Shown: piece by piece, positions 2,345 through 62,412 of the stretch
How positions within the stretch are numbered: the stretch's first letter is position 1
Layout of the letters: every line of letters starts with the position of its first letter
From: Liolophura sinensis
Taxonomy: Eukaryota > Mollusca > Polyplacophora > Chitonida > Chitonidae
Direction: 5' to 3'
Length of the DNA stretch: 64,000 nucleotides
Assembly: GCF_032854445.1 (NCBI RefSeq)
Contig: NC_088295.1
Coordinates: 56,277,249 to 56,341,248 of the forward strand
Notes under the pieces: generated by a model
Database searches by the model: none
What the model was told of the DNA's origin: nothing
The model's input: only the letters and a program-made list of their open reading frames with translations
Made by a program: the position numbers and the translations under genes

Positions 2345-2879
2345 TCAAGCGTCCAGATCTTGTTTTGCGCGTGTGTTAGCCCTGTTCAGAACATCATAAG
2401 GATTAGCCTCGGTCTCAGTCCTGGCAGGAACTGCCCTGCCTCGATGCAACTGATTATACGTCATGTCGACGTCAACATTTCCCGTGACAGCGCCAATAAC
2501 GTTATCAGAACTGCTCTCACCGTAAGAGTGTCTGACCACGTGATCGTAATCTCCATGCACTTTAAAATGTGCAGCTTCCCCTTGTACTCGGTCGTAGTCG
2601 CCATGGTGATTTGTTCCTGCGGCGGACCCAACCGAGAATGCGGCGTCTCCTGAAGTGTTGGCCGCTCTTCCGGTTTTGTTCACCTTGGAGTACAAGTCGC
2701 TGACATTCGTCTCTGCAGCACGATTCCAGGGTGTGCCATTGTCGTCTCTCTCAAGCTGGTACAGCGAGTATCGGGAGTTAATGTTGTCGTAACCAGCGTT
2801 GGGTCGGCTGACGATCTGTGCCTCCGTGACGTCATCATCACGGTTTTCTGTTTGAAGAATGCGAGGCTTCTCTGCGGAC
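2345..2879 (-). CDS. Cytoplasmic tail exon of copy 1, multi-tyrosine
   Basis: About 177 residues after the WKRR stop-transfer sequence; the acceptor is gtttttgtcag. Tyrosine motifs in order: YDNI (also Y-x-N, a Grb2-type site), YSLYQL, YSKV, YDRV, YDHV, YNQL, YDVL. Six fit Y-x-x-hydrophobic, usable by SH2 domains or endocytic adaptors. Spacings do not make a strict ITAM, and residues at -2 do not make strict ITIMs. No kinase or TIR domain is visible. The ends at the same stop codon are shared by copies 2 (24073-24607) and 3 (56207-56741). Confidence 0.78.
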
Positions 2880-5800
2880 CTGACAAAAACAAACAAACGA
2901 AATCCATAGATGACTTTGGCATTTAAAAGCCTACAAACTCTTAGGGTCTAAGTTTTTCAGTGGCAAGGTGATTTTGTCCAAGGCAGACGATGCGCGGTTT
3001 CAATACCGACCTTGAGCAGAGACGATAAATTCTTCCGCTCCTATTTTTCACGTGGCATTGGTGACAAAAAGTGGTCGAGGTTCCTCGTGTCAATGTCTTA
3101 GTTCGTGGAACACAGCTTGTCTTCATCCAATATAACCAAGTTTCTACGTCACGGATGGGAAAGTTCGTCAATAACTTGCCTAAGGTCGATGGGGAAAAAT
3201 GGCATTATAATTATGACGAATTCTTGTGTAAGGCCGTAGTTTGCAAGTTTTACTTTCCACTATAGTCCTTCAGACACCACAAAAAGTTTTCAGCACAGAG
3301 GAACATAGGAGAAATTTACTAACTGAAGACAAATGTTATAACCAGAATGTTTTGACCTAGATCAAAAATTGATTAACGTTCCAATTTTGATGTTACGAAA
3401 ATCTGGAGGAAAAATGGAATTACCGTCTTTTCCAGAGGAACACGAGTAGAACCACAATCAGAACACACACCACCAGTCCTCCGATAACCCCGCCCACAAT
3501 AGCACCGGTATCTGGGGAGAAAGAGAAACTTATAGGGCAAACTTGACCAAACTTCTGAAAATCACTCCTACAGTCTTTGGGTAATATACGAGTCTTTACA
3601 ACCGTACCTGAGAAGAAATCTGTTCAAGATAACGAGAATTCTACTATGGATAATACCAAGTTTTGTAAACATTTCGACATTACACCTAATATCACATGTG
3701 GCTATAAACATGGGTATACAGTTTGACACAGTTTTGCACGTTTTGGGAGAGATCTGTCAAAATCAGACTGTTTAGGAAAGAGTCACCACTGAACTATATG
3801 AAATGCAATGATTCGTGGCAAATGAAACTTGTACAGTAGAACTGTAAACACTGTGTCTTCTATCTAGTCAATAGAGTGCAGCACATAAGGCTTTCCTGAA
3901 ATTTTATGCTGTATACCCTATTTATTTTCACCAAATTTAGAAAATCAAACCTTACTGTTCACATTCATATTGTTGGCTTTAAGGATATAAGGATAGGACA
4001 TAAAAGAGCGCTCTGGGGCCGGTTGTTCAAAAGATTATTCAAAGTTAAGCTAATTAACATGTCATTTGTACATGTTCTCGCTTTCACTGCTTGTGAGGCC
4101 TTAGTGACAATAAGTCGTCGACGAAGCTCGTGTGGTCGTATATGCAGTCTAACATTCGTTGAAGCTCACTTGTCTTCCATCAATATATGGCGTTCATCAC
4201 ATTTGGGCAAGTTTGTTAGTAACTCGCCAAAGGTTAATGGTTTATGAGGGGCTCTCCAGTTTCCTCCACCCATAAAACTGACTTAAAACAATCATAATAG
4301 TGAAAAAGTCTTGCGTATTACGTCAGAAAATAATGGAATAAATAAATAAATACATGAGTCTCGGTTTATTTGTTTGATTGTTGTAAAATGCCATACTCAA
4401 AAATGTTTTGTTATAGAATTGGCTGCCCGTTTTACTGGTAGAAGAAACCGGAGGGCCCGGGATAAACCATCTACCTTTGGCTCGGTACTAACAAACTATC
4501 CATCATGTGACCTATACAGACAGCCAAATTGCATACCATAGTGACAGGAAACAAGTGGTCCTCAACAAGTCCTTGCCACCAAAACCCAACGATTCCTCAT
4601 AGCGGCAGAAGCGGCAAATTCCATGTCCAGGAATGAGCCTTGCTTTAGCCGCTGTTGGTGACTGTTTTATTACCAGCAGGAGGATCTAGTATTAAACATT
4701 TTGCGATCTGCATGGTACGACGACACTGCCACTATTTAACTGGGTCTTTTTAGCGTGCCATTTAGTTCCTCTTTTAAATGGGAGATATCACGAGTTGTAT
4801 TTTCCAAAGAGAGGCTGTTATTTGGCAGCGTGGTCTCGTATGAAGTCACGGTGGGTTGGTATGTCGTTGCTCAAAAACAAAAGAAAGTTGCCACTGCACC
4901 TAAACGGGGAATACTACTTATGTAAGGCTGAAATATATTTAATATGTTTAGTTTAGAAAATTATACGTTTTATCGATGAATTTTACCCCTATCTTTGAGT
5001 GAGACAGGGATTGTCTTGGAGTAAATTTACATTGGTTGGCTGATATACCTGTGTGTAATGCTTATTAGAAACAGACATCGTTTAAATCCGATCTGTTTTA
5101 TGATTGACATCTATTTAGAAGTCATTTATGGTGTTTTCATTACCTTTATTTATCTATTCGACCGTAATGCTCAAGAATTCAGTTTCATGGGTGGAGGAAA
5201 CAGGAGTGGCTGTGCAAAACCATAGTTATTAAGTGACCAATCTTGAGTGATTGCTGTCAAAGATAAAATAATTGGGCAAATTTGTTTCGAAAACTTAGTC
5301 TAAAAGAACGTTAACACAACCTGTAATAATTTGTATCAAACTGCTGTGCACGTGATATTTTAATAGGTAAATGCTGAGTATACTCAGTATACTGATTACA
5401 AGAAAGAATGGTTAACGGACCTTGCAGCACTGGTATATATACCCTATTTATAATAGCTCTACGAGTAAGTTTTACAATGTCCTATAGGTGCAGCTGAGCA
5501 ATATGTAGGAATTATTGTATAACTGCAGAAGATCATCTGTCATTGCTGCAGGAAACTCAGTTTTAAAAATATGTAAAGTCGATTTGTTTCTTTCTCGTTC
5601 AACTATAATAGGGGTCATACAATTAAAGACCAGAAATTTTAAGACCAGTAGCAGAAATCTAACTTACTGGATGTCTTTATTGAAGACAATTCTTCTGATC
5701 CTCTTGTTGAACCTGCTGAGATTGTTGTTGCTGCAAGAGGAGGGCAAGTCCCTGACAACAATAACAGTCGGTAATTTATACAAAAATTAAATCTAAAAAA

Positions 5801-8800
5801 AATGAAGTAAAAGAAATATGAATGGCGGCCCATGCGTGGATGTTGGCACCATCCTGATCGCATCTAACGCGGATCTTGATTGGCCGGTACATGTAGTCTC
5901 GTTTAGACCGTTTATGGCACTTTAGCCTTTCCTACACGCTAGCTATAAACATGACACGATGTATCTTCAGTTTGCTGACCTGTTAAGACAGGCGTGGTGA
6001 CGAGAAAACTATCAGTGAATGATCTTTCATTCGCTTCACTCACTGTCTTTCAAACCTGTAAAAACCTGACCTAGCCCAATGCATAATTCTGGCTTTTGTG
6101 TTTCACGACAAAGTCTATTAATGTCAGTGAAAATGTAAAAGTGAAAAGTCGTTACCACATTCCCGGACAACCGGAGATAATGTAATTTCTCACCAAAAGT
6201 TGTACTTATGTTATAAATTAGCCATTTGTGGTGCCTAAATTATCATGCATATGTTCTGTTATAATTATACACTATATTTATCTCTTACAATGACCCATTA
6301 TCTTGATTATGTGCGAATTAGTAATCAGGCCAGGAAGTAGGCTGTTTGTGAATACCCTTTTTTATTTCGGGAGAACAAACAAGGTTGGTGTCGAACAACG
6401 CGGCATTATGTGTAAACATTTACGTGTAAACGTTAGTGTATGTCGGAAAACCCTACGCAGATCATGGTCGGATCCTACACACATCATACGTGGATCCTAC
6501 GCCCATCATATGCGAATGGTACACCCATCTTGACTGTATGATCGAACAGTACTGTACATCTCAGTAGCCCAAAGTTCTTATATTACGACAAACGTGATAT
6601 TTGATAATCCGAAAATGGAGAGATGAAAAGGTTTTAGACTCTCCAGACACAGGTTCTCCAGATGGTACATCTTATCTGGACCTACATTTGTACAAAGACC
6701 AGAAGGGTTTCCTCTCTCGCAGACTTTACGACAACAGGGATAATTTCAATTTTGATATTGTAAATTATCCTTACTTGGACAGCAATATGCCGAAAGGTCC
6801 TGCATGTGGCGTGTACACATCTTGCCTAGAAGCATTTGTCAGATCTTGAGTGTTGTGTGAGGATTTCAATCAACTTTACAAGTTATAACTGCAAAAACTA
6901 GTATATCACGGTTATTAAATTAAACGCCTTCACTTCAAGTTTCTTAAGTTTTACAATACATTTCTCTTGTACGTAAATACAGATAGAGCGTCCAGAATCT
7001 CTGACACTGTGCTTCATGATTGTGTCTAATTCCGCTTAACCGGAGAATGAATACTCATCGTGCTGAATCAAATCACCGCGTTGCAATCAGGGCGCAACTG
7101 AGATACATATCTTGTTATCGACAACTGATATTCTTGCATGGTACACGATTTGAATACTGATTTCACTCAGTCGCCTAGAACATACCTTGCGTCTTTCCTA
7201 CTTTATTGAAAACTGTTGGCTGCTTCTCTTTGTATGATTTCGTCCTATTTTCGTACTTTATATAATTTCTTGGGAACTAGCCATGCGACTACTGACCCGG
7301 AACACCCCTATGAGTTGACGGCTGGTATACGATTATCTGTTTCGACGCATAGATTACAATGGTAAAACACGTTTTCAAATAGTTCTACTGAACTTCAAAA
7401 GTAAAAACAGTCAAAACTATTTTTGTTTAAACATTTTAGTCATAGGGACAAAATTTACCTAAGGGGCACTCGCCATTAAAAAGGTCATTTGCCGATAACA
7501 TACACGAGAAATAACTTGGAATGCTGTGGGAGACACCATTTCCTTCAAACGAGAGCGAAAACAGAAAAAAACGTGTCTGTAGTGGTTTTGAGATAACGGA
7601 ATATCGGAATCAACAACGCCGAATTAATTAGTTGGGAGTGTCAGATGTTTATTTCGTGCACCCTACGTCGATAAAGTATTCTTGGACAACCACTCAGATA
7701 AAACAATACAGCGCAGTACATGCCCCGTGGAAATATGTTCCTATCGCTCACTGATTATCAGAGTTCCCTGACGATGCAAAAACAGCCCCGCTCACCAGAG
7801 CAGCTGTGCACTACCCGAGCCGTAAAACTCAACACTGAGATCTGCCCGGTCCGAAATTTGACTCGAAACCAGCAAGAGCGGAACAACAAAAATAACCCAA
7901 CAAACTAAAACCGTGAAGACCCGTCACATATGAAATTGAAATTAACATCACTGCACTTTTAAACCTAATTTTTCTCTGAATGGTACCACAGGAGGTTTGT
8001 AAAGTACTAGTTTTAAAGCATTTACATGAATATTTGGAACAATGTTGCTGACAGGAGATTGAATTTCATTGATTATATGTGATCATTTGTCAACTATCAC
8101 AATGTCGTCCCTACTCCATAGTTTAACTCTCCATGCTGTAGGCCTTTGTATTGCAGCTGAAAATTATCTATTCGTATGTATTCAAAATAACTCAGCGAAA
8201 CTGTTAATTCTTTAGTGTCAACAGAATTTAATTGCTTGCTGAAAATACTTACCGGAAGAAGTGCATGTGTATGTGATCGATCTCACGCTGCTGAATGTGG
8301 ATATGTGACCGAGACGTACACACGGGTCAGCTACTAGTCTCGGACTGGAGATATGAAGATCACACTGGCCTAGGCCAGTACAATTTTGCTGTAACTCATG
8401 GCGGTCATCGTTTGTATTTCTAACCCAGCTACATCGGCTTGTGTTACCACGGCAACATCGGTCATCCACAGGGGCTGATATAAGACGAGGACAAAGTTGG
8501 TCGTTTGGATCCCATTGGTAAAACTTGACCTCTAATATACAGATCTGAGCCCCCTCGTCACACTCTAATTTGTTGTGTGTTTGACTGAAAACTGATGATC
8601 CGTGACAGGCCTCGGAGATAATGACTGAAAAATATAAACAAGAATTGTATATCAACATGAAAGTGTAAAAATGTGTGATTCTACACACACAAAAAAGAAA
8701 GGAACAAATCATGCAGGAAGAACAGAACAGTCTGTATAGCCTGTGTGGGTCAGATGGAAGCACCTTAATCTAGCTCATTAGTCAAACAGTTGTATCGCAC

Positions 8801-9866
8801 CAGTGGAAACACCTCCACGTGTATGTGTTGAAAATCGGGTGAGTCGGGGGAGGAGGGTGGGGTGGGGTGGTGTGTTGTAGGGGAGCCCAATAATATATGA
8901 GTGAAATATTTTTAGTACGGCATTAAAAAATAAATTGTACAGCACAGATATTGGTGTTATTACACCACACGGCAATATGTACGACATTAACTGCTGGTGT
9001 ATTATTTCATACCCTGACCATATAATGCTGGCAGCCGTCGTTTACGCGAAACATTATTAAGTGCGGCGTAAAACACCCATAAATACATATCGTTACACAA
9101 CATGGTGTAACAGGTTCGTCATGCGCACTGATGAAGGGCGGTGTTTATCTATGAGCCCTGTCCCATACACGTTATGGTCATCAGTGGAATGTTTTTCAGA
9201 ACCACAATTAAACAACTACTTAAATATACTACTTAAGAAAGCTCTGTGTTTTTTTGTTGTTTTTTTGTTGTTGTTGTTGTTGTTTCCTTTTTTTTGTTTG
9301 TTTGTTTTTTTTTGGCGCGATTCTTCAGTCACGTAAGCTTGTATTTGGTTTGGTAACGTCTACACAGTAGACATAAATTTACGTCAGACTTGGCCGGCCC
9401 ATTTATGATCAGCGTAAGATCCTGTACATATTTATCACCATTCAGAGAAAATTCTATTGATTTGATTGGTTGAAATGCCAAACATTCAAGATCGAATATG
9501 AAAGGGTAGATCAGTTTTTATATACCCCTGCAATCAAAGCGTCAGGCTCGGATGTATCCCCAGAATCAAGGCGAAACGCGTAGATGTAAAATGTAAACAA
9601 AAAGGGAGACAACTTTGAACAAACTTCGTCCGTTAATATTTTCATCTGCTTCGCCTGGGAAAAATATTATCGACATCAGCCAAATATCTACGCGTAAACC
9701 CCCGGAAGGCCGTCATATAACTAATAATATATGCACATGTATATTGTGACACCCACCTTCTAAGACACTTACCTTCACTATCTACGAAACATACTTGCAG
9801 TCCAGCTGTCAGAATTGTCAGGAAGATTGGCATATACATGGACGGTTGTCCTCTAATAAGACACAT
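2345..9866 (-). CDS. SUEL-lectin-like transmembrane receptor, copy 1 (six exons)
   Basis: Predicted single-pass surface receptor of about 427 residues. Exons on the minus strand, 5' to 3': 9866-9773 (signal peptide), 8624-8253 (lectin-like domain), 5751-5668 (Ser/Thr stalk), 4869-4759 (Thr-rich stalk), 3511-3424 (transmembrane, ending WKRR), 2879-2345 (cytoplasmic tail and stop). Junctions follow GT-AG and phases run 1-1-1-1-2 without a break, except that the fourth exon has GC instead of GT at its donor and a weaker GAG acceptor. That exon is phase 1-1, so skipping it would keep frame. The start at 9866 is preferred over an in-frame ATG at 9890 because the distal ATG is GTG in unit 3. The lectin exon has 11 Cys, an N-glycosylation site in NTSRC and a DPC motif, but not the usual YGR sugar-contact motif, so ligand binding is open. 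A possible polyadenylation signal lies at 1916-1921. Exon structure is inferred from conservation between three copies, not transcripts. Confidence 0.8.
4370..4690 (-). mobile_element. Diverged SINE-like repeat (unit 1)
   Basis: Left end has the tttgattgttgtaaaatgcc tail-type sequence, followed by the accggagggcccgggataaac block shared with other molluscan dispersed repeats. Orthologues lie at about 26,025-26,330 and 57,835-58,145. It sits in the intron before the transmembrane exon. Confidence 0.5.
6601..6849 (+). mobile_element. Retroelement reverse-transcriptase C-terminal fragment (unit 1)
   Basis: Open frame with SYLDLHLYKDQKG, LYDNRDNFNFDIVNYPYLD and GPACGVYTS, a pattern typical of the region after the catalytic domain in molluscan and amphioxus retroelement polyproteins (LYDKRDDFNF.IVN.PFL). 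No catalytic motif or upstream part is present, so it is a dead fragment. It lies in the intron between the lectin and stalk exons of copy 1, opposite in strand. Confidence 0.65.
8253..8624 (-). CDS. Lectin-like exon of copy 1 (SUEL/rhamnose-binding-lectin type)
   Basis: Acceptor ...tttttcag, donor G|gtaagt, phase 1 to 1, 372 bp. Seen in order: ACHG, LECDE, QICI, DRCC, NTSRCSWVR, NCT, QCDL, ADPC, SVRSITYTC. The LxC..G..I opening, the xCxL..DPC block and the closing hydrophobic-Y-x-C strand follow the SUEL domain. The YGR motif of sugar-binding family members is replaced by FYQW. Two sequons (NTS, NCT) are kept in all three copies. Confidence 0.78.
9005..9095 (+). repeat. SINE 3'-domain fragment (unit 1)
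   Basis: Reads gctggcagccgtcgtttacg then aagtgcggcgtaaaacaccc and ataaatac, the 3' end of a SINE with its 5' part lost. Copies lie at 31,197-31,258 and 61,388-61,450. It is in the first intron of the lectin receptor gene, antisense to it. Confidence 0.6.
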
Positions 9867-24072: not shown

Positions 24073-24607
24073 TCAAGCGTCCAGATCTTGTTTTGCCCGT
24101 GTGTTAGCCCTGCTCAGAACATCATAAGGATTAGCCTCGGTCTCAGTCCTGGCAGGAACTGCCCTGCCTCGATGCAACTGATTATACGTCATGTCGACGT
24201 CAGCATTTCCCGTGACACCGCCAATAACGTCATCAGAACTGCTCTCACCGTAAGAGTGTCTGACCACGTGATCGTAATCTCCATGCACTTTGAAATGTGC
24301 AGCTTCCCCTTGTACTCGGTCGTAGTCGCCATGGTGATTTGTTCTTGCGGCGGATCCAACCGAAAATGCGGCGTCTCCTGAAGTGTTGGCCGCTCTTCCG
24401 GTTTTGTTCACCTTGGAGTACAAGTCGCTGACATTCGTCTCTGCAGCACGATTCCAGGGTGTACCATTGTCGTCTCTCTCAAGCTGGTACAGCGAGTATC
24501 GGGAGTTAATGTTGTCGTAACCAGCGTTGGGTCGGCTGACGATCTGTGCCTCCGTGACGTCATCATCACGGTTTTCTGTTTGAAGAATGGGAGGCTTCTG
24601 TGCGGAC
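24073..24607 (-). CDS. Cytoplasmic tail exon of copy 2, multi-tyrosine
   Basis: Compared with copy 1 there are about 12 nucleotide differences in 535 bp: 7 amino-acid changing and 5 silent. All seven tyrosine motifs (YDNI through YDVL) are unchanged. This is much closer to neutral or constrained change than the lectin exon of the same gene. Confidence 0.78.
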
Positions 24608-27600
24608 CTGACAAAAACAAACAAACGAAATCCATGGATGACTTTGGCATTTAAAAGCCTACAAACTCTTAGTTTTTCAGTGGCAAGGTGATATTGTCCA
24701 AGGAAGACGATGCGCGTATTCAATACCGACCTTGAGGAGAGACGGTAAATTCTTCCGCTCCAATTTTTCACTTGGCATTGGTGACAAAAAGTGGTCGAGG
24801 TTGCTCGTGTCATTGTCTTAGTTCGTGGAACACAGCTTGTCTTCATCCAATATAACCAACTTTCTACGTCAAGGATGGGAAAGTTCGTCAGTAACTTGCC
24901 TAAGGTCGTTGGGGAAAAATGGCATTATAATTATGACGAATTCTTGTGTAAGGCCGTAGTTTGCAAATTTTACTTTCCACTATAGTCCTTCAGACACCAC
25001 AAAAAGTTTTCAGCACAGGGGAATATAGGAGAAATTCACTAAATGAAGACAAATGTTATAACTAGAATGTTTTGACCTGCATCAAAAATTGATTATCGTT
25101 CCAATTTTGATGTTACGAAAATCTGGAGGAAAAATGGAATTACCGTCTTTTCCACAGGAACACGAGTAGAACCACGATCAGAACACACACCACCAGTCCT
25201 CCGATAACCCCGCCCACAATAGCACCGGTATCTGGGGAGAAAGAGAAACTTGTAGGGCAAACTTGACCAAACTTCTGACAATCACTCCTACAGTCTTTGG
25301 GTAATATACGAGTCTTTACAACCGTACCTGAGAAGAAATCTGTTCAAGATAACGAGAATTCTACTATGGATAATACCAGGTTTTGTAAACATTTCCACAT
25401 TACATCTAATATCACATGTGGCTATAAACATGGGTATACAGTTAGACACAGTTTTGCACGTTTTGGAAGAGATCTGTCAAAATCAGACTGTTTAGGAAAG
25501 AGTCACCACTGAACTATATGAAATGCAATGATTCGTGGCAAATGAGACTTGTACAGTAGAACTGTAAACACTGTGTCCTCTGTCTAGTCAATAGAGTGCA
25601 GAACTTAAGGCTTTCCTGAAATTTTATACTGTATACCCTTCTTATTTTTACCAAATTTAAAAAATCAAACCTTACCCTTCACATTCATATTGTTGGCTTA
25701 AGGATATAAGGATAGGAAATAAAAGAGCGCTCTGGGGCCGGTTGTTCAAAAGATTATTCAAAGTTAAGCCAATTAACATGTCATTTGTACATTTTCTCGC
25801 TCTCTGCTTGTGAGGCCTTAGTGACAATAAGTCATCGACGAAGCTCGTGTGGTCGTATATGCAGTCTAACATTCGTTGAAGCTCACTTGTCTTCCATCAA
25901 TATATATAATTCCTCCACCCATAAAACTGACTTTAAACAATCATGAGAGTGAAAAAGTCTTGAGTATTACGCTAGCCAATAATGAAATAATGAAATAAAA
26001 AAATAGATGGGTTTGGGCTTATTCTTTTGATTGCTGTTAAACGTCATACTCAAATATGTTTTGTTATAGGATGGCCGCCCGTTTAACTGGTGGAAGAAAC
26101 CGGAGGGCCTGGGATAAACCAACAACCTTTGGCTAGGTACTAACAAACTATCCATCATGTGACCTATACAGACAGGCATATTGCATACCATAGTGATAGG
26201 AAACAAGTGGCCCTCAACAAGTCCTTGCCATCAAAACCCAACGATTCCTGATAGCGGGTGAATCGGCAAATTCCGTGTCCAGGAATGAGCTTGGGTTTAA
26301 CCGCTGTTGGTAACTGTTTTATTACCAACAGATTGATCTATTATTACACATTTTGCGACCTGCATGGTACTGCCCTTATTCTACTTGGTCTTATTAGTAC
26401 CGTTTAATTCCCCTTTTAAAGGAAAGATATCACGAGTTGTATTTTCCAAAGCGAGGCTGTTATTTGGCGACGTAGTCTCGTATGACGTCACGGTGGGTTG
26501 GTATGTCGTCATGGTCTCGTATGACGTCACGGTGGGTTGGTATGTCGTCGTGGTTTTGTATGGCGCCACGGTGGGTTGGTATGTCGTCGTGGTCTCGTAT
26601 GGCGCCACGGTGGGTTGGTATATCGTCGTGGTCTTGTATGGCGTCACGGGTGGTTGGTATGTCGTCGTGGTCTTGTATGACGTCACGGTGGGTTGGTGTT
26701 TCGTGACTGAAAAACAAAAGAAAGTTGTCACTGCACCTTTACGGGGCCTTTGGTGCCAAACTATCTTGAAATTTATTTATTATACTACTGATGTAAGCCT
26801 GAAATATTTTTAATGTGTTCAGTTTAGAAAATTATACGTTATATCGACGAATTTTACCCCCATCTTTGAGTAAGACAGGGGTAGTCTTGGAGTAAATTTA
26901 CATTGGTTGGCTGATATAGCTGTGTGTAATGCTTGTTAGAAATCAGATCTGCGCTATGATAGACATCCACTCAGATGGCATGTAATTTGTTTTAATTACA
27001 TTTATTTATTTATTCAACCATAATACTCAAGAGTTCAGTTTCATGGGTGCAGGAAACAGGAGCGGCTGTGCAAAACCACAGTTATTAAGTGACCAATCTT
27101 GAGTGATTGCTGTCACTGATAAAATAATTGGGCAAATTTGTTTTGAAAACTTATTTTAAAAGAACGATAACACTATATAACCTATATCAAACTGCTGTGC
27201 AGGTAATAGTTTAATAGGGAACTTAATTAATGTGGTTCCAAGCTGTGCATGTAGTCTGTGGGGGAAAAACAGTAACATCGTATACTGCATACAAGAAACA
27301 AATGTGAATGGACCTTGTAGCATTGGTATATATACCGTATTTATCATAGCGCTTCGAAAAAGTTTTATAGAGCCCTATATGTGGAACTGAGCAGTATGTA
27401 GGAATAACTGCATTAGATCATCTGCAATTGCTGCACGAAACTCAGTTTTAAAAACTTGTAAAGCCCCTTTCTTTCTTTTTTGTTGAACTATTATGAAGGC
27501 CATACAATATGTTTACCCCAAATAAACTAAATAAATTTTAGTTCTCCACACAACTGACAAAATGCGAAATTTCAAGGCCAGAAGCAGAAATCTAACGTAC

Positions 27601-30600
27601 CGTTTGTCGTTATTGAAGACGATTCTTCTGATCCTCCTGTCGAGCTTGCTGAGATTGTTGTTGTTGCAAGAGGAGGACAAGTCCCTGACAATAATAACAG
27701 TCGATAAATTATACAAAAATGAAATTAAAGATGCTAGGAAGTTTACTAGATTATGAGAAAAAATATACCAAGCACCTTAAACTCTCATTGGAAACGAACT
27801 ACCACGTAGTTAAGCGAAGAATGCAACCAAGATGCTGAGTTATAGCTTAACGCCTGTCATCCGCCCATCTTGCACGCATCTTGATCGGCTGTGAGGCGAA
27901 CCCTACGCGGATCATAGGGCCATGATGGGTGGCCCATACCCGGATGTTGGCACCATCCCGATAGCATCTTACGCTGATCTTGATTGGCCGGTACATGTAG
28001 TCTCGTTTAGACCGTTTATGGCACTTTAGCTTTTGCCTACACGGTAGCTATAAACATGGCATGATATATGTTCAGTTTGCTTACCTGGAAAGGTAGACGT
28101 GGTGAAGAGAATACTATAACTGAATGATCTTTCATTCGCTTTATTCTCTCTCATTCAAACCAGTAAAAAGGTGATCTAGCCCAATGCATGACGTCTAACT
28201 TTTTCTTTCTCGTCTCTCAACGCTGTTTATTAGTGTCAGTGGAAATGTAAAGTCGTTAACGCATTCCCGGACAACCGGAGATAATGGAAGTTCTCACCAA
28301 AAGCTGTACTAATATTATAAATTAGGCACCCGTGGTGCCTCAATTATCATTTATAAGTTCTGTTATATCTATACACTATATTTAGCTCTTAAACTGACTG
28401 ATTATCTAGATTATGTGCGAATTAGTAACCACGCTGGGAGCTAGACCGTTAGTGAATACCCTTTTTTATTTCCAGAGAACAAATAAGGTTGGTGTCGAAC
28501 AGTCCGGCATTATGTGTAAATGTTATGTGTAAACGTTAGTGTATGTCGTAAAACTCTACTCAGATCATGGTCGGATCCTATACCCATCATACGCGGATCC
28601 TACTCCCATCAAATGCGAATGGTACACCCATCTTGACTGTATAATCGAGCAGTACTGTACATCTCAGTAGCCCAAAGTTCTTATATTACGACAAACGTGA
28701 TATTTGATAATCCGAAAATGGAGAGAGGAAAAGGTTTTAGACTCTCCAGACACAGATTCTCCAGATGGTACATCTTACCTGGACCTACATTTGTACAAAG
28801 ACCAGAAGGGTTTCCTCTCTCGCAGACTTTACGATAAGAGGGATTTCAATTTTGATATTGTAAATTACCCTTACTTGGACAGCAATATACCGAAAGGTCC
28901 TGCCTGTGGCGTGTACACATCTCGCCTTGAAGCATTTGTCAGATCTTGAGTGTAGTGTGAGGATTTCAATCAACTTCACAAGTTATAACTGCAAAAACTA
29001 GTATATCACGGTTATTACATTAAACGCCTTCTCTTCAAGTTTCTTAAGTTTTACAATACAATTCTCTTGTACGTAAATACAGATAGAGCGTCCAGAATCC
29101 CTGGCACTCTACTTCATGATTGTGTCTAATTTCGCTTAACCGGAATCTAGAGAACAAATACTCATCGTGCTGAATTAAATCACCGCGTTGCAATCAGGGC
29201 GCAACTGAGATACATATTTTGTTATCGACAACTGATATTCTTGCATGGTACACGATTTGAATACTGATTTCACTCAGTCGCCTAAAACATACCTTGCATC
29301 TTTCCTACTTCATTGAAAACTGTTGACTGCTTCTCTTTGTATGATTCCGTCCTATTTTCGTACTTTATATAATTTCTTGGGAATTAGCCATGCGACTACT
29401 GACCCGGAACACCCGTATGAGTTGACGGCTGGTATACGAATGTCTGTTTCGACGCATAGATTACAATGGTAAAACATGTTTTCAAATCGTTCTACTGAAC
29501 TTCAAAAGTAAAAATAGTCAAAACTAGTTTTGTATAAACATTTTAGTCATAGGGCCAAAATTACCTAAGGGGCACTCGCCATTAAGAAGGTCATTTGCCG
29601 ATGATATACACGAGAAATAACTCGGAATGCTCTGGGAGACACCATTTCCTTCAAACGAGAGCGAAAACAGAAAAAAACGTGCCTGTAGTGGTTTTGAGAT
29701 AAGATATTTTGTTGTTTCTATGGGTAAATAAATTGATATATGGTATATTTAATGACCGGAAAGTTCGTATTCCCCGGATATTAATTTCGGAATCAGCAAC
29801 GCCGAATTAATTAGTTCGGAGTGTCAGATGTTTATTTCGTGCACCCTACGTCGATAAAGTATTCTTGGACAACCACTCAGATAAAACAATACAGCGCAGT
29901 ACATGCCCCGTGGATATATGTTCCTATCGCTCACTGATTATCAGAGTTCCCTGGCGATGCAAAAACAGCCCCGCTCACCAGAGCAGCTGTGCACTACCCG
30001 AGCCGTAAATCTCAGCATTGAGATCTGCCCGGTCCGAAATTTGACTCGAAACCAGCAAGAGCGGAACAAGGAAAATAACCCAATAAACTAAAACCGTGAA
30101 GACCCGTCACATATAAAATTGAAAATAACATCACTACACTTTATCTCTGAATGGTACGATAGGAGGTTTGTTAAGTACTATTTTTAAAGCATTTACATGA
30201 ATATTTGGAACAATTGCTGACAAGAGATTGAATTTCATTGATTATATGTGATCATTTGTCAACAATCACAATGTCGTCCCTACTTCATAGTTTAACTCTC
30301 CATGCTGTAGGCCTTTGTATTGCAGCTGAAAATTATCTATTCGTATGTATTCAAAATAACTCAGCGAAACTGTTAATTCTTTATTGTCAAGAGAATTTAA
30401 GTGCTTGCTGAAAATACTTACCGGAAGAAGTGCATGTGTATGTGATCGATCTCACGCTGCTGACTGTGGATATGTCACCGGGATGTACACACGGGTCAGC
30501 TACTAGTTTCGAACTGGAGGAATGAAGATCACACTGCCTTTGGCCAGTACAATTTTCCTGTAACTTATGGCGGTCATCGTTTGTATTTCTAACCCAGCTA

Positions 30601-32252
30601 CATCGGCTTGTGTTACCACGGCAACATCGGTCAGGCACAGGGGCTGATATCTCATGAGGACAAAGTTGGTCGTTTGGATTCCACTGGTAAAACTTGACCT
30701 CTAATATACAGATCTGAGTCCCCTCGTCACACTCTAATTTGTTGTGTGTTTGACTGAAAAGTGATGATCCGTGACAGGCGTCGGAGATACTTACTGACAA
30801 ATATAAATATGAATTGTATATAAACATTAAAGTGTAAAAATGTGTGATTCTACACGCACAAAATAGAAAGGAACAAATCATGCAGGAAGAACAGAACAGT
30901 CTGTATAGCCTGTGTGGGTCAGACAGGATCACCTTAATCTATCTCATTAATCAAACAGTTGTATCGCACCAGTGGAAACACCTCCACGTGTATGTGTTCC
31001 AAACCGGGTGAGTTGGGGTAGGAGGGTGGGGTGGGGTGGTGCGTTGTGGGGGAGTCCAATAATATATGAGTGAAATATTTTTAGTACGGCATTAAAAAAT
31101 AAAGTCTATAGCACATATATTGGTGTTATTACACCACACGGCAATATGTACTACATTAACTGCTGGTGTATTATTTCATACCCTGACCATATAATGCTGG
31201 CAGCCGTCGTTTAAGCGAAACATTGTTAAGTGCGGCGTAAAACACCCATAAATACATATCTTTACACAGCATGGCATAACAGTTTCGTCATGCGCACTGA
31301 CGAAGGGCGGTGTTTACCTCTGAGCCCTGTCCCATACACGTTATGGCCATCAGTGGAATGTTTTTCAGAACCAAAATTAAACAACTACTTAAATATACTA
31401 CTTAGCAAAGCTCTCTGTTATTTTTTTGTTTGTTTGTTTTCTTGGCGCGATTCTTCAGTCGCGTAAGCTTGTATTTCATTTCCTTTAGCTATTTACAAAG
31501 TCTTTTATGACATGAGTTTTGTCACTACTTTTAGTCTTAGTCTTAAAATTGAACAGGAAAGAGATGCCCAGGGGAATACATACATGTGAAATATTGCTAT
31601 ATTTTGTATCCTTTTTTAGAATTCGTTTCATGTTAGCGTTCTGTATTTAGTGTTGCACGTCATATATACGTTTGCAAAGAGTGCCCTACTTAAATTCTAA
31701 AACAATGTACCTGTATGCACACGGAATAGGTTTGGTAACGTCTACACAGTACATATGCACTTACCTACGACTTGGCCGGTCCATATACGATCAGCGTAAA
31801 ATACTGTACATATTTATCACCATTCAGAGAAAATTCTATTGATTTGATTGGTTGAAATGCCAAACATTCAAGACCGAATATGAAAGGGTAGATCAGTTTT
31901 CATATACCCCTGCAATCAACGCGTCAGGCTCGGATGTATCCTTAGAATCAAGGCGAAACGCGCAGATGTAAAATGTAAACAAAAAGGGAGACAACTTTGA
32001 ACAAACTTCGTCCGTTAATATTTTCATCGACATCGCCTCGGAAAAACATTATCGACATCAGCCAAATATCTACCCGTAAACCCCCGAAAGGCCGTCATAT
32101 AACAAATAATATATCCACATGTATGTATATTGTGACACCCACCTTCTAAGACACTTACCTTCACTATCTACGGAACATACTGGCAGTCCAGCTGTCAGAA
32201 TTGTCAGGAAGATTGACATATACATGGACAGTTGTCCTCTAACAAGACACAT
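24073..32252 (-). CDS. SUEL-lectin-like transmembrane receptor, copy 2 (six exons, long stalk)
   Basis: Paralogue with all splice sites canonical. Exons 5' to 3': 32252-32159 (signal peptide), 30793-30422 (lectin-like), 27684-27601 (Ser/Thr stalk), 26706-26401 (Thr-rich repeat stalk), 25231-25144 (transmembrane), 24607-24073 (tail and stop); about 492 residues. The repeat exon carries six 13-residue units (consensus TTTYQPTVTSYET) where copies 1 and 3 have one. It is exactly 195 bp longer, so frame is kept. The lectin domain is about 85% identical in protein to copy 1, with changes concentrated in the loop-like second half. The tail differs at only 7 of about 177 residues. A second signal exon at 35854-35947 could replace the first exon. 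The AATAAA present downstream of copies 1 and 3 is lost here with a deletion. Probable membrane recognition receptor signalling through tail tyrosines; the ligand is unknown. Confidence 0.83.
26025..26330 (-). mobile_element. Diverged SINE-like repeat (unit 2)
   Basis: Orthologue of 4370-4690, in the same intron position of copy 2. Confidence 0.5.
26465..26706 (-). repeat. 39-bp in-frame coding minisatellite in the copy 2 stalk
   Basis: Six head-to-tail units of about 39 bp encode a 13-residue Thr/Tyr/Pro repeat such as TTTYQPTVTSYET. Copies 1 (4825-4869) and 3 (58276-58320) have one unit. The extra 195 bp equals five units. Thr density suggests an O-glycosylated, extended stalk, so unit number would set how far the lectin domain stands off the membrane. 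Other frames are also open across the array (for example on the plus strand), a by-product of the stop-free unit. Confidence 0.88.
28704..28949 (+). mobile_element. Retroelement reverse-transcriptase C-terminal fragment (unit 2)
   Basis: Same insertion as 6601-6849, one codon shorter (LYDKRDFNFDIVN), so it predates the split of units 1 and 2. Unit 3 jumps from the sequence left of it (about 60,055) to the sequence right of it (about 60,130) and lacks it. Confidence 0.65.
30422..30793 (-). CDS. Lectin-like exon of copy 2
   Basis: Same length, phase and cysteine pattern as 8253-8624. I count 26 nucleotide differences from copy 1. Two are silent (one Gln and one Val codon) and the other 24 change 19 residues. 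They include Arg-Leu to His-Glu before the ISAP stretch, Leu-Gly to Gln-Arg before QCDL, and Arg-Leu-Gly-His to His-Pro-Gly-Asp after DPC. The about 150 bp of intron next to it differ at only 4 positions. Confidence 0.78.
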
Positions 32253-51543: not shown

Positions 51544-51566
51544 CTTTTACCACTGTAAAAGGACAA

Positions 51567-52019: not shown

Positions 52020-52025
52020 AATAAA
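52020..52025 (+). terminator. Possible polyadenylation signal of the plus-strand receptor
   Basis: AATAAA about 480 bp after the stop at 51543. No cleavage-site evidence is available from sequence alone. Confidence 0.3.
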
Positions 52026-53460: not shown

Positions 53461-53820
53461 GGCCCGGATAGCACAGTTGGTAGAGCGTCCGCTTCGGGGC
53501 CGGTAGATCTAGAATCAATCCTTGATCGAGTCACACCTAAGACTTTATAAGAGGAAGTTGTAACTTCCTCGTTTGGTGTTCAGCATGAAAGGGATAGTGC
53601 AACGACTGGTTGTCCCGTATCAATATAATTGCTTGGGCGGGACGGCTTACTTGCCTTCGGTAAGTCGTCTCAGTGAAGCAGCACTAAATAAAAGAGCGGT
53701 AGAAATCCGTCCTGCAACAAGGAGGCACATTACACGTGCATGCACCCTAAGGATTCCTTCGTCGTCATATGACTGAAAAATTGTTGAGTACGACGTTCAA
53801 CCCCAAGCACTCACTCACTC
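53461..53820 (+). mobile_element. tRNA-headed SINE, duplicate of 21461-21820
   Basis: Same head, body and 3' domain, flanked by cttcaatcgg and ctttaaatgg, decayed forms of the unit 1 target duplication. Adjacent to the start of unit 3. Confidence 0.8.
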
Positions 53821-54852: not shown

Positions 54853-55109
54853 TTAAGTATATTTATTTATTTATTTGATTGGTGATTTTCCCCTTTCTAA
54901 AAAGTGTAGCTGTTGCCAGCATCAAGGTGGGGGAAATGAAAACCCGGCACTGCCAGGGGGAAACCGATGGCTATCTACAGGTTGCCGGTGGACCTTTCCA
55001 CATACGACCGGAGAGGAAGCATGAGCTGGACATAATCTCACCGCGACCACTGGTTAGAGGCTACCGGGTAATTATGTTGCACCAACACGCTAATCACTAG
55101 GCCGCGGAG
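54853..55109 (-). mobile_element. SINE, minus orientation (unit 3 copy)
   Basis: Orthologue of 1005-1256; same tail and tRNA-like head. Confidence 0.7.
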
Positions 55110-55770
55110 ACTCCTAAAATAAGAGTATGTGAACATGAATAACAGCAGTCATGTAGTGGAAATGCTGCGATCTGACTAAAACTTCTAAGTATCTCCTGCT
55201 TTCAGCCCACTTAAAATATGTAAGTTTATGTTTAGTCATCAAGTGCATAACAACAGGAAACGTGGTCCATATGAAATGTAAGATAAGCCTTTACATGCAA
55301 ATTACCAGAAGTACGACCCAAAACCTTGGCGCATGAAGTTGGTAGTTTTTATATTACCTGCCTGTTTCCCAATGGATGTGAAGACATTCGTTATGGTTTT
55401 GTTTTGATAATAAATGAGCATATTTGTTTTAAAACACGCCTCATTTTTTACACGTCTTGCTTAAGTTCCAGAAACATCCCTTCGTAATTTATGGAGATAT
55501 AGGAGAAATAACCAGGCATGTAAAACGTCATGCACATTTTGATAATAGAACATAGAATTTATAAAATTACAACTGTGAGACAGGATATATACATATAAAC
55601 AAAATGATGCACATAAAATTTGAGAAGGATAGTATATAGTCGTATGTTTTCATACAGTAACTAAATATTGCATAGTATCCCAAATTACATGATGAGTTAA
55701 CCAACAATGCAACAGGTGAGTCAACTGTGGAGAGTTGAGATCCATGCTTGCAAACCTAGAGATACTTGGA

Positions 55771-55776
55771 TTTATT
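55771..55776 (-). terminator. Possible polyadenylation signal of copy 3
   Basis: AATAAA on the minus strand, about 430 bp after the stop at 56207, in the same context as 1916-1921. Confidence 0.35.
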
Positions 55777-56206
55777 TATGAGCTTTGTAGACGTATAAAA
55801 ATTATTTAAAAGCAGTGAAATAATGTAGTATACACAAAGGACAAAACATTTTCCAAGAAGTTAAAAGGATGGAGACTTGGTTTCTAAAAGTCTTAATTTC
55901 CAATCATCGAATTTGAGTTGGACTCTTTGGAAAATCTTCTTGATTAATAAACCACTTAATTGCAGGCCGGCTAATGTGTATAGGGCGAGCCCTCAAAAGC
56001 AAACGTGATAGGACAGAACGAATTGAATAGGTAATATTCCAAAAGCCAATTGAATGCAGTAAGGAAAGTGTTTTCAGTCCTTGATGTACGTGGTCCAACT
56101 ACAAACGTCAAACAGCCACTTTTCCTTTCATGGAACAGCTTTTGAACTACTTATACTGCCACTGTCGCAATCCCTTACGTTCACAAGTCACCACCTTGGC
56201 AGTTAG

Positions 56207-56741
56207 TCAAGCGTCCAGATCTTGTTTTGCCCGTGTGTTAGCCCTGTTCAGAACATCATAAGGATTAGCCTCGGTCTCAGTCCTGGCTGGAACTGCCCTG
56301 CCTCGATGCAACTGATTATACGTCATGTCGACGTCAGCATTTCCCGTGACAGCGCCAATAACGTCATTAGAACTGCTCTCACCGTAAGAATGTCTGACCA
56401 CGTGATCGTAATCTCCATGCACTTTAAAATGTGCAGCTTCCCCTTGTACTCGGTCGTAGTCGCCATGGTGATTTGTTCTTGCGGCGGATCCAACCGAGAA
56501 TGCGGCGTCTCCTGAAGTGTTGGCCGCTCTTCCGGTTTTGTTCACCTTGGAGTACAAGTCGCTGACATTCGTCTCTGCAGCACGATTCCAGGGTGTGCCA
56601 TTGTCGTCTCTCTCAAGCTGGTACAGCGAGTATCGGGAGTTAATGTTGTCGTAACCAGCGTTGGGTCGGCTGACGATCTGTGCCTCCGTGACGTCATCAT
56701 CACGGTTGTCTGTTTGAGGAATAGGGGGCTTCTGTGCGGAC
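56207..56741 (-). CDS. Cytoplasmic tail exon of copy 3, multi-tyrosine
   Basis: Nearly identical to copies 1 and 2 outside the first dozen residues, with every tyrosine motif kept. The contrast with the diverged lectin exon of the same gene points to homogenisation of this end of the unit, or to strong constraint. Confidence 0.78.
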
Positions 56742-59700
56742 CTGACCAAAACAAACAAACGAAATCCATGGGTGACTTTGGCATTTAAAAGTTTACAAAC
56801 ACTTATGTGCTGAGTTTTTCAGTGGCAAGGTGATATTGTCCAATGCAGACGATTCCGACCTTGAACAGAGACGGTAAATTCTTCCGCTGCTATTTCTCTC
56901 GAGGCATTGGTGACAACAAGTGGTTGAGGTTGCTCGTGTCAATGTCTTAGTCCGTGGAACACAGCTTGTCTTCATCCAATATAACCAAGTTTCTACGTCA
57001 CGGATGGGAAAGTTCGTCAGTAACTTGCCTAAGGTCGATGGGGAAAAATGGCATTATAATTATGACGAATTCATGTGTTAGGCCGCAAATTTTACTTTCC
57101 ACTATAGTCCTTCAGACACCACAAAAAGTTTTCAGCACAGAGGAATATAGGAGAAATTCACCAAGTGTTATAACTAGAATGTTTTGACCTGGATCAAAAA
57201 TTGATCAAAAATTGATTAACGTTCCAATTTTGATGTTACCAAAATCTGGACGAATAATGGAATTACCGTCTTTTCCAGAGGAACACGAGTAGAACCCCGA
57301 TCACGACACACACCACCAGTCCTCCGATAACCCCGCCCACAATAGCACCGGTATCTGGGGAGAAAGAGAAACTTGTAGGACAAACTTCTGAAAATCACTT
57401 CTACAGTCTTTGGGTAATATACGAGTCTTTACAACCGTACCTGTGAAGAAATCTGGTCAAGATAACGAGAATTCTACCATGGATAATACCAAGATTGGTA
57501 AACATTTCCACATTTGTACATGTTCTCGCTCTCACTGCTTATGGTGCCTTAGTGACAATAGGTCGTCGCCGAAGCTCGTGTGGTCGTATATGCAGTCTAA
57601 CATTCGTTGAAGATCACTTGTCTTCCATCAACGTATGGCGTTCATCCTATTGAGACAAGTTTGTTTGTAACTCGCCAAATGTTAGTGGTTTATGCGGGGC
57701 TCTACGGTTTCCTCCACCCACAAAACTGACTTAAAAGAATCGTAATATTCAAAAAGTCTTGAGTATTACGTTAGTCAAAAATGAAATAATGAAATAAATA
57801 AATACATAGGTCTGGGTTTATTCCTTTGATTACTGTTAAATGTCATACTCAAAAATGTTTTGTTTGAGAATGTATATCAGTTTTATTGGTGGAAGATTCC
57901 AGAGGGCCCGGGATAAACCAACAACCTTTGGCTAGGTACTAACAAACTATCCATCATGTGACCTATACAGACAGGCATATTGCATACCATAGTGATAGGA
58001 AACAAGTGGTCCTCAACAAGTCCTTGTCATCAAAACCCAACGATTCCTGATAGCGGGTGAATCGGCAAATTCCATGTCCAAGAATGAGCCTTGGTTTAGT
58101 GGCTGTTGGTAACTGTTTTATTACCAACAAGATGATCTATCATTAAACATTTTGCAATCTGCATGGTACGACTACACTGCTCCTATTTTATTTTGTCTTA
58201 TTAGCGTACCATTTAGTTCCTCTTTTAAATTATAGATATCTCGAGTTGTACTTTCCAAAGAGAGGCCGTTATTTGGCAACGTGGTCTCGTATGACGTCAT
58301 AGTGGGTTGGTATGTCGTTGCTGAAAAACAAAAGAAAGTTGTCACTGTACCTAAACGGGGCCTTTGGTGTCAAACTAACTTAAAAGTTATGAAAAATACT
58401 GCTTACTTAACCCTGAAAATTATACGTTTTATTGACGAATTTTGCGTTGTCTTTGAGTAATACAAGGGTGATCTAGGAGTAAATTCGCACTGGTTGACTG
58501 AAATAGCTGAGTATAAATTATTAGAAACAGACATCGTTGAAAGCAGATCTGGCATCCACTCGGATGGCATTGATGTTGTTTTCATCACATTTATTTATTT
58601 ATTCGACCGTAATACTCAAGAGGTCAGTTTCATGGGTGGGGGAAGCAGGAGTGGCTGTGCAAAACCACCCACCCTGATCATTTGACTGATTAACACTCCT
58701 AAATGTTACCTAGAGATATGTACATCACATTGGATGGAAAACAAGTGGTCTTCAACCAACGTTAGGTTGTAGAAACGAGTGTCTTATTGTCACCAATCTC
58801 CCATGAACATTGAAAGCAGTGGAATCTACAAATTCCCTGTTCAAGGCTAGATTTGAACACACAGTTGACAAGAGTGAAAAGCATGCTCCTTAATTAACCA
58901 CTCGGCCAAAGAATGTTTCCCTTTGACGCTACATGCAAGACGCTGGTTGGAGCGATTCAAATCGTTCTTACCAGCCTTGAGTGATTGCTGTCACGGATAG
59001 AATAATTTGGTTAAATTTGTCTCAAAAACTTAAGGTAAAAGGACGGTAACACAAAACATTCTATACCAAACTGCTGTGCACATGATATTTTAATAGGGAA
59101 CTTAATTAATTTGGGTTCACGTTGTGCATGCAGTCTGTGGGCAAGACATTGACATCGTATACTGAGTACAAGAAACAATGGTCGATGGATTTTGTACTTT
59201 GATATTTATACCCTATTTATCATAGTATTTTGTGTTGGTCTTACAGAGCCCTGTAGGTGCAGCTGAGCAGTATGCAGGTATGCAGGAATTATTGCATAAT
59301 TGCATTTTATCGTCTACCAATGCTACAGGAAACTCATTTTTAAGAATGTTCATTGTTTCGTTTTATTCAGCTATAAAAAAAGCTATACAATATGCTTGCC
59401 CCAAATAAACCAAATAAGTTGTAGTTGTCCAAACAACAGAAAAAGTCTAAATTTCTATACCAGAAGCGGAAATCTAACTTACCGTTTGCCTTTATTGAAG
59501 ACGATTCTTCTGATCCTCCTGTCAAACCTACTGAGACTGTTGTTGTTGCAAGAGGAGGGCAAGTCCCTGACAACAATAACAGTCAATAATTTATACATAA
59601 AGGAAATTAAATCCGCACGGAAGTTTACTAGGTTATGAGAAAAAATTAATAGTTCAAAAATATGAAATTCTCACTGGAAACAACTGGAAAGAAGCTAAAC

Positions 59701-62412
59701 GAAGAATGCAACAATTGTACCGAATCTCAGTAGCACAAAGTATTTGTTTACGACCAACGTGATATATCTTAATCCAATAGTTTTATAACGTTAAAAGTAT
59801 ATCACTTCCAAAAATAAAAGTGAACAAGCGATACAACTTCCTGGCAACAATAAAAATCAACAACTGACACGAAAAGGAAATTAAATATAGACGGAAGTTT
59901 ACTAGGTTATGAGAAAAAGGAAAAAAACAAACATCTTAAATTCTCAATATAAATAAGCTAAATGACGATTCCCACGAAGGTCACAGTCACAATTTGTTGA
60001 CTTCAGTCGCCCGAAGTACTTTATGTTACGCCCAACGTGATATTTCATAATCCACCCATGGCGAGATTCAATGCTTTTAAAACGTTGAAATACACATCCA
60101 GATCATTCTGCTGATGTCAAAAGTATTGAGCACCTAAGTACCACTCGCCATTAATATGGACCTTTGTCGATGACACAAATCTTACAATGCTACCAGTAAT
60201 AGAGAAGCAGCCGTTTCCTTCAAACGACGGCGGAAAGCAATGGTTTATTTTGGGGTATGTTGTTTTCGTGATATTTGGTCATTAATGCGTGTAATTAACT
60301 TGTTATGTGGTATACAAATGCAATCAACACCCTGGCACTGTTATACCTAATTCTGCTTTGGTGCCTTAGGAGTTCTCCAAATGTGCTACTTTTTAAGCAC
60401 TTCCATGAACTGTTACAATAATGTCCTGTTAGAGATAAGTTGAGTTTCACTGGTCATATGTGATGATTTGTCATCTATTACGATGTCGTTGTTGCTCCAG
60501 TTTTATTCCGCATTCTGAGCTGTTTGTAATGCAGCTTGTATGCATTGTATGATAATAACACAAGGGAAGCGACAAATTTTTTTTATCAACATAATTCATA
60601 GGCTTGCTGATTACACGTACCAGAAGAAGTGCACGTATACGTGATGGATCGCACGCTGCTCTGGGTAGCCCCGGGATGGGTGAGATTACATGGATGCCCT
60701 ATGAATTTCCAAACAGCAGAATGAAGATCACACTCGCTTTGATCAGTGCAGTTTGTCTGTAACTCCTGACGGTCATCGTTTACATCTCTTACCCAGCTAC
60801 ATCGACTTGTGTTGCGCTGACAACATCGGTCAGGCACATCCCTGGATATAAGATACGAACAAACTTGGTCGCTTGGATCATACTGGTAGTACCTGACCTC
60901 TGTTATACAGATCTCTTGCAACTCGTCACACTCTAACATGTTGTGTGTCTGAGTAAATGTTGATGGTCCGTGACATGCGTCCGAGGTTTTCACTGAAAAA
61001 GATATAAACATAGGGTAAATCTAGGTATGATTCTATGCCAAAGAAAAACATATACGAACAAATCATGCAAGAATAGTGTGTATAGCCTGCATGGGGTGGC
61101 ATCACCTTAACCTATAGCTAATTAGTCCAACAGGCATGGTCCTATAATATATGAGTGAAATATTTTTGAGTACGGCATAAAACACCAGTCAAAAAATAAA
61201 TTCCATAGCACATACATTGGTATTATTACATCACACGACAATTTTTTTTAGGTTACGCAGGGATATTACATAACACGGCAATTTGTACTACATTAAATGG
61301 TGGGTGTTACATAACACGGCAATTTGTACTACATTAAATAGTGGATGTTACATTGATGGTGTATTATTACATACCCTCACCATATAACGCCGGCAGCCGT
61401 CGTTTAAGGAAATATTCTTGAGTACCGCGGAAAACACCCATAAATACATATTAAAACACAGCGTGGTGTAACAGGTTCGTCACGCGCACAGATGAAGGGC
61501 GGTGTTTATCTCTCAGCCTTGTCCCATACTCGTTTTGGTCATCAATGGAATTTTCTTCAGAACCATTTAACTATTTAACAAAGTTAAACTCTCTGTTTTT
61601 TTTTTCTTTTTTGACTCTTCAGTCGCGTAAGCTTGTATTTCATTTCCTTTGACTATTTACAAAGTGTTTTATAACTTTTGTCACTGGTCATAGCCTTAGG
61701 ACGGAACAGGGTGGACATGCCTAGGTGAATACATACATGTATAATATTGCTACATTTAGTATACTTCTTCAGAACTCGCTTCATGTTAGCGTTCTGTGTG
61801 TAGTGTTGTACGGCATATATACGTTTGTAAAGAGTGCCCTACTTAAATTCTAAAACAATGTACCTGTATGCACACGGACTGGGTTTGGTAACGCCTACAC
61901 AGTATAGTTACACTTACCTACGACTTGGCCGATCCATTTATGATCAGCGTGAGATCGTGTACATATTTATCACCATTCAGAGAAAATTCTATTGATGTCA
62001 TTTGTTAAAATGCCAAACAGACAAAACCGAATATGAGTGGGTACATCGGTTTCATATACTCCCGCAATCAAGGCCTAAGGCGTGGAATGTATCCGCAAGT
62101 CAGGGGCAAAACGAGCAGATGCAAAATGTAAACAAAAAGGGAGACAACTTTGCACAAAATTCGTCCGTTAATTTTTTTATTGGCTTCGCCTCGGAAAAAT
62201 ATTATCGACCTCAGCCAAATATTTACCCGTGTACCCCCCACCCCCCAAAGGCCGTCATATAACTAATAATATATACACATGTATGCATATTGTGTCACGC
62301 ACCTTTTAAAACACTTACCTTCAACATCTACAGAACATACTTGCAGTCCAGCTGTCAGAATCGTCAGGAAGATTGGCATATACATGGACGGTTGCCCTCT
62401 AATACGACACAT
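56207..62412 (-). CDS. SUEL-lectin-like transmembrane receptor, copy 3 (six exons, diverged lectin)
   Basis: Exons 5' to 3': 62412-62319 (signal peptide), 60992-60621 (lectin-like), 59566-59483 (Ser/Thr stalk), 58320-58210 (Thr-rich stalk, one unit), 57354-57267 (transmembrane), 56741-56207 (tail and stop); about 427 residues. All junctions are GT-AG and all lengths match copy 1. By eye the lectin exon shares about 60% of residues with copy 1, while the tail is about 95% identical. The DPC motif of copies 1 and 2 is HPC here. Cysteine positions, the NTSRCSWVR stretch and the closing SSVRSITYTCTSS block are kept. The upstream in-frame ATG seen in copies 1 and 2 is GTG here, which fixes the shared start at 62412. 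A possible polyadenylation signal lies at 55771-55776. The gene runs convergently with the plus-strand receptor ending at 51543. Confidence 0.82.
57835..58145 (-). mobile_element. Diverged SINE-like repeat (unit 3)
   Basis: Orthologue of 4370-4690, in the same intron position of copy 3. Confidence 0.5.
58588..58912 (-). mobile_element. SINE, full in unit 3, internally deleted in units 1 and 2
   Basis: Runs from a tttatttatttattcgaccg tail to a minus-strand head ttggccgagtggttaattaa. At 5145-5225 and 27000-27080 only the tail-side 80 bp remain, joined to the same downstream sequence (cttgagtgattgctgtca). The shared deletion groups units 1 and 2. Confidence 0.68.
60621..60992 (-). CDS. Lectin-like exon of copy 3
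   Basis: 372 bp, phase 1-1, acceptor tttttcag, donor G|gtacgt. The fold-determining cysteines and both sequons are kept, but most of the region between QCDL-like and SSVRS is replaced, and DPC becomes HPC. If DPC contributes to ligand contact as in canonical SUEL lectins, specificity here probably differs. Confidence 0.76.

Follow-up and report, generated by a model that had tools for sequence, protein, structure and literature searches.

A tandem array of predicted single-pass receptors with divergent SUEL-like heads and a shared tyrosine-rich tail in a chiton genome

Hydractinia Alr receptors and vertebrate NK receptors are encoded by clustered paralogues that combine a variable ectodomain with a tyrosine-containing tail. 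They are built on Ig or C-type lectin folds, and many carry strict ITIM or ITAM motifs. EVA-1 (C21orf63) is a single-pass receptor with two RBL/SUEL domains and a short tail (PMC2430599 and PMC4133157), and in bdelloid rotifers and Acanthamoeba SUEL domains form part of membrane-associated or multidomain proteins (PMC8878817 and PMC4053784). The Glu located right after the first cysteine of the latrophilin RBL is reported to be required for sugar binding, and receptor RBLs are frequently devoid of such residues (PMC2430599). Here we describe a locus of the chiton Liolophura sinensis, part of which lies in a 64,000-nucleotide stretch of DNA (the window; C1:56277249-56341248). Judged from its sequence, the locus is a genuine expanded receptor family, of a known domain type but in an arrangement for which the literature searched held no description. 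A sequence-only reading of the window had not recognized the single-pass, multi-tyrosine SUEL form in a tandem cluster as described. This goes too far for the basic single-pass form, since EVA-1 is known (PMC2430599 and PMC4133157). No tandem tyrosine-tailed SUEL family was found in a literature search that covered few subscription journals.

As that reading had proposed, three six-exon genes are predicted on the minus strand within positions 2345-62412 of the window. The models of all three (copies 1, 2 and 3, or g09, g10 and g11) are complete, their predicted exon joins each give a single open frame (427, 492 and 427 aa, respectively), and the exon phases agree across the copies (Table 1). 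The proposal that the exons also match in length fails for exon 4. The exon lengths are 94/372/84/111/88/535 bp in copy 1, 94/372/84/306/88/535 bp in copy 2 and 94/372/84/111/88/535 bp in copy 3; exon 4 is unmatched because that of copy 2 holds six 39-bp units. The introns are GT-AG throughout, save for a GC donor 3' of exon 4 in copy 1. The signal peptide and transmembrane segment were assigned by eye, and the single hydrophobic segment, followed by basic residues, describes a single-pass membrane protein on the same inspection. Copies 2 and 3 also show a sub-cut-off match to Pfam TM_ErbB1.

A different donor for exon 4 (ACTC/gtgata) exists in copies 1 and 2 but not in copy 3, and was discarded for that reason; the donor used in the models is GT in ten of the 11 complete copies of the array and GC in one (copy 1). 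A stop codon lies a few codons beyond the exon-4 donor of copy 2 (window 26380-26401), and a secreted form of this copy through intron retention at exon 4 is possible. Two minisatellites are located between copies 2 and 3: ~45 copies of a 23-bp unit at 45868-46920 and ~4.6 copies of a 48-bp unit at 43633-43853.

Table 1. Predicted exons of the three genes, in window coordinates
Gene	Exon	Assignment	Position	Strand	Remark
Copy 1 (g09)	1	Start codon and likely signal peptide, ends in phase 1	9773..9866	-	
Copy 1	2	SUEL-like lectin domain, A type, phase 1-1	8253..8624	-	
Copy 1	3	Ser/Thr-rich stalk, phase 1-1	5668..5751	-	
Copy 1	4	Thr-rich stalk, one 39-bp unit	4759..4869	-	GC donor
Copy 1	5	Transmembrane segment, phase 1-2	3424..3511	-	By eye
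Copy 1	6	Cytoplasmic tail, 9 tyrosines, stop codon	2345..2879	-	
Copy 2 (g10)	1	Likely signal peptide	32159..32252	-	By eye
Copy 2	2	SUEL-like lectin domain, A type	30422..30793	-	
Copy 2	3	Stalk	27601..27684	-	
Copy 2	4	Stalk, six 39-bp units	26401..26706	-	
Copy 2	5	Transmembrane segment	25144..25231	-	By eye; TM_ErbB1 below cut-off
Copy 2	6	Tail	24073..24607	-	
Copy 3 (g11)	1	Likely signal peptide	62319..62412	-	By eye
Copy 3	2	SUEL-like lectin domain, B type	60621..60992	-	
Copy 3	3	Stalk	59483..59566	-	
Copy 3	4	Stalk, one unit	58210..58320	-	
Copy 3	5	Transmembrane segment	57267..57354	-	By eye; TM_ErbB1 below cut-off
Copy 3	6	Tail	56207..56741	-	

Searches of the genome (609,464,459 bases in 632 contigs; all counts are lower bounds) placed these genes in a larger array. 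At E 0.01, the lectin exon gave at least 25 matches: 16 close ones at C1:56.12-56.50 Mb, one in a divergent neighbor (g00, 56.509 Mb), a group of five at 56.88-56.90 Mb and three more that are distant. The tail exon gave at least 14 at the same threshold, every one within the array. With g00 kept apart, the array consists of 17 loci, whose exons extend across C1:56119422-56494147 (~0.37 Mb) and three of which are contained in the window; the sequence bears out the tandem cluster that had been suggested and shows it to be larger than the window. Eleven loci are complete, with intact frames of 427-492 aa that have no internal stops, and 54 of their 55 introns are GT-AG, the other being GC-AG. 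The gene models reflect more than chance, since all 11 of these copies show the same exons, open frames and splice sites. The other six loci are incomplete in the DNA examined. There, exons 5-6 are missing from g01 and g03 (nor does a clean model fit exons 3-4 of g01), g05 lacks exons 4-6 except for one 38-base match, g13 lacks exon 5, g14 lacks exon 1, and g08 is a tail only.

The heads of the array fall into two types, A (n = 11) and B (n = 5), and stalk exon 4 varies by 39-bp units. Judged from the length of this exon, there is one unit in g02, g03, g07, g09, g11, g12, g13 and g14, three in g16, and six in g04, g06, g10, g15 and g17. B-type heads recur at every third slot (g02, g05, g11 and g14), with the slot of g08 holding only a tail and g03 being extra; the duplication unit may be a three-gene block.

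Beyond the array, the five related lectin exons at C1:56.88-56.90 Mb (L018-L020, L050 and L051) form a second cluster with members on both strands. Downstream of one of its heads, an open frame (L050, 4271-4600) contains several tyrosines (YLSL, YINL) and looks like a different multi-tyrosine tail, its join to the head being putative. The distant relatives of the head are located at C10:18.86 Mb (L052), C1:48.3 Mb (L053) and C1:49.3 Mb (L054). Hydrophobic, membrane-like stretches were noted by eye downstream of L052 and L053.

The assignment of exon 2 to the SUEL family was examined with sequence profiles. Against Pfam PF02140 (SUEL_Lectin), single sequences showed weak matches below the gathering score. 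The whole protein of copy 2 matched at E 4.1 and none was listed for copy 3, while exon 2 of copy 2 alone matched at E 0.0068, with 17.2 bits against a gathering score of 31.4. In a 15-member head alignment (A2), eight of the 15 matched within an E limit of 10, the best at E 0.00098. A search of the genome with the SUEL family found five places over the cut-off, none of them in the array. Profile-profile comparison by hhalign aligned the heads (15 of 25 relatives) with a SUEL profile of five domains, four from three PDB entries (two of them 5h4s domains) and one exon of the chiton genome. The match was collinear over 67 columns, covering head residues 18-102, with a probability of 91.9 and a score of 40.1. 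None of 200 column shuffles reached this score (maximum 17.5), nor did any of 200 in which the cysteine columns were held fixed (maximum 23.6), and the reversed alignment scored 13.9. Since 400 shuffles failed to reach the profile-profile score, we conclude that the predicted head is a divergent SUEL/RBL domain, whose similarity exceeds what composition and cysteine pattern give. A PDB profile search with the A2 alignment returned nothing at E 10. AlphaFold models of the lectin exons, built from 3-row alignments of the window's own exons, were too low in confidence for use (pLDDT 42.4 and 39.9), and a Foldseek search with only the first of them gave no matches at E 0.001. The SUEL-like head of the sequence-only reading is upheld by the profile-profile comparison; it falls short of the Pfam cut-off, and the structure models do not bear on it.

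The residue that follows the first cysteine is His in every head (CHG in 16/16, CEG in 0/16), and the sugar-contact Glu of the latrophilin RBL thus appears to be replaced. We infer that the two first cysteines are equivalent, and no more than infer it because the first cysteine of the array heads falls outside the stretch aligned by hhalign. YGR and, for the loop-2 Lys, KYL are absent (0/16 each), and DPC is found in 8/16. Given the invariant His and the absence of YGR and KYL, rhamnose binding by the array heads is unlikely.

Head and tail have had different histories. Between A and B genes, the lectin exon shows a dS of 0.82 and a dN of 0.28, compared with 0.061 and 0.025 for the tail. Copies 1 and 3 differ at 29% of exon 2 and 38% of the alignable part of intron 2 versus 2.6% of the tail. 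For the 13 genes that have both exons, the tail tree was rejected by the head data (AU p 2.5e-11) and the head tree by the tail data (AU p 8e-4; KH and SH 0.03). Exons 3-4 of g10, g15 and g17 show only one or two differences per 390 bases; these genes differ at 5-9 of 94 positions in exon 1 and at 9-12 of 535 in the tail. Such divided histories point to gene conversion or exon exchange, and a process of this kind that homogenizes the tail end would fit the data.

Codon models were run with a program written for this analysis. For the 11 A-type heads, some of which come from incomplete genes (g01 and g13) where constraint may be relaxed, the M0 omega was 1.28. M2a was preferred over M1a with 2dL of 26.5, placing ~30% of codons at an omega of 3.5; 2dL was 40.1 for all 16 heads, and the two halves of the A-type head, analyzed apart, were both positive (13.4 and 12.1). 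None of the 26 finished null simulations (of 60 planned) reached 26; their maximum was 9.5 and two exceeded the 5% line of 5.99. These simulations were run without recombination, and site tests can be inflated by gene conversion. The same comparison for the tail was not significant (p 0.07). Loop codons 43-53 and 93-110, whose exact limits were chosen after the sites were seen, had a dN that was higher than the divergence of the flanking intron ends by a factor of 2.66 (bootstrap 1.95-3.57). Outside the loops it was 0.57 times the flanking intron divergence (0.41-0.77). Counting over the whole domain gave an omega of 0.87 for the A-type heads, with dN exceeding dS in 18 of 55 pairs. The codon models and the loop rate support positive selection on predicted head loops, whereas the whole-domain counting does not.

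Seven of the 13 high-probability selected sites fall in residues 93-110, a stretch that includes the cysteine aligned to DPC of SUEL domains. The loop that follows this cysteine probably matches the sugar-pocket loop of latrophilin, a correspondence that is extrapolated past residue 102 (PMC2430599). The head loops may contact ligand. Positive selection focused on the loops favors a recognition role for the array, as read from sequence.

The tail exon encodes 177 residues. It is a multi-tyrosine tail, as had been stated, although the count of seven tyrosine motifs does not stand: there are nine tyrosines and six Yxx[LIVMF] motifs. All nine are kept in 14/14 array tails, each of which has five or six Yxx[LIVMF] motifs, and acidic residues precede two tyrosines per tail. 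With just 42 of 177 tail columns variable, the nine invariant tyrosines are weak evidence on their own. A strict ITIM is present in 1/14 array tails (g06), ITSM and ITAM are each found in 0/14, and a relaxed ITAM occurs in g00 only. A strict ITIM/ITAM immunoreceptor reading was rejected on the near absence of these motifs from the 14 tails.

The divergent neighbor g00 has lectin, transmembrane and tail exons in the same phases as the array, and its transmembrane exon is 50% identical. Its tail carries five Yxx-phi motifs (YSML, YDHV, YDHL, YDHL and YDLL). The alignment score of this tail, 62.8, is borderline, given that 300 shuffles averaged 23.1 and reached up to 66.0, and a search of the genome with it at E 1 found only itself. 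Because the search with the array tail missed that of g00, distant tails elsewhere in the genome are possible.

We think it rather probable that the array encodes tandem recognition receptors, type I single-pass proteins in which diversifying heads are joined to a shared phosphotyrosine or endocytic tail. The ligand would differ from head to head or change rapidly, with a protein or a glycan other than rhamnose likelier than rhamnose itself, and binding would lead to receptor clustering. The common tail would then be phosphorylated and recruit SH2 proteins, feed into clathrin-adaptor uptake, or both. Many ligands would in this way be read into one response, most plausibly self or non-self recognition, and an immune, allorecognition or gamete function may be envisaged. 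More tentatively, at less than an even chance, the array could be a SUEL-fold recognition locus in which a former rhamnose-lectin scaffold gave rise to a diversifying polygenic repertoire with a homogenized signaling tail, for non-self or mate recognition. Yxx-phi is a clathrin-adaptor sorting signal, and the proteins might instead be endocytic or scavenger receptors whose tails take up varied ligands without phosphotyrosine signaling. The five or six Yxx[LIVMF] motifs in every array tail and the five in g00 agree with this possibility, which we would not expect to prevail; the acidic residues before two tyrosines, together with the number of motifs, seem to exceed the needs of an uptake signal.

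Many marine fertilization proteins evolve under sexual selection or conflict, and the heads could likewise belong to gamete recognition receptors shaped by these forces. The positive selection indicated for the loops by the codon models and the loop rate would suit such a role, as would the first isolation of RBL domains from eggs of marine species (PMC2430599), but a large tyrosine-rich tail would be unexpected for an egg-coat lectin, and we consider this explanation unlikely. An array that is recent and largely redundant, with head diversity arising by drift and gene conversion under relaxed constraint, would account for the whole-domain omega of 0.87, for the six of 17 loci that are incomplete in the DNA examined and for the differing head and tail histories. 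Against it stand the 11 intact frames and a loop dN above the flanking intron divergence while that of the remainder is held to 0.57 of it; we judge it about as improbable as the gamete explanation.

Should tandem recognition receptors be confirmed, the SUEL fold would join the animal scaffolds used for clustered, fast-evolving recognition receptors, and there would be an evolutionary split inside one gene, with diversifying loops in the head and a homogenized signaling tail. The array supplies concrete candidate genes for chiton immune or gamete recognition. It resembles the Alr and NK families in general layout (clustering, variable ectodomains and tyrosine tails). With secreted RBLs (CSL3, 5h4s) it shares the SUEL domain, two 5h4s domains being part of the matching profile; those proteins have several tandem domains and are named as L-rhamnose-binding, whereas the array has one membrane-anchored domain and YGR in 0/16 heads. 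Latrophilin (ADGRL) has an RBL attached to a receptor, with the same cysteine order over the aligned part, but it is a seven-pass receptor in which Glu and Lys contact rhamnose; the array heads have His after the first cysteine in 16/16. The rotifer and Acanthamoeba SUEL proteins are large multidomain or EGF-linked, and the accessible parts of their descriptions mention no tandem tyrosine-tailed family (PMC8878817, PMC4053784). EVA-1 is similar in being single-pass, in its RBL/SUEL ectodomain and in the substitution of sugar-contact residues; it differs in its pair of RBL domains, its short tail and its action with UNC-40 or SAX-3 (PMC2430599 and PMC4133157). What sets the array apart from EVA-1 is its single lectin exon, its Thr-rich stalk, its tyrosine tail of 177 residues and its tandem arrangement.
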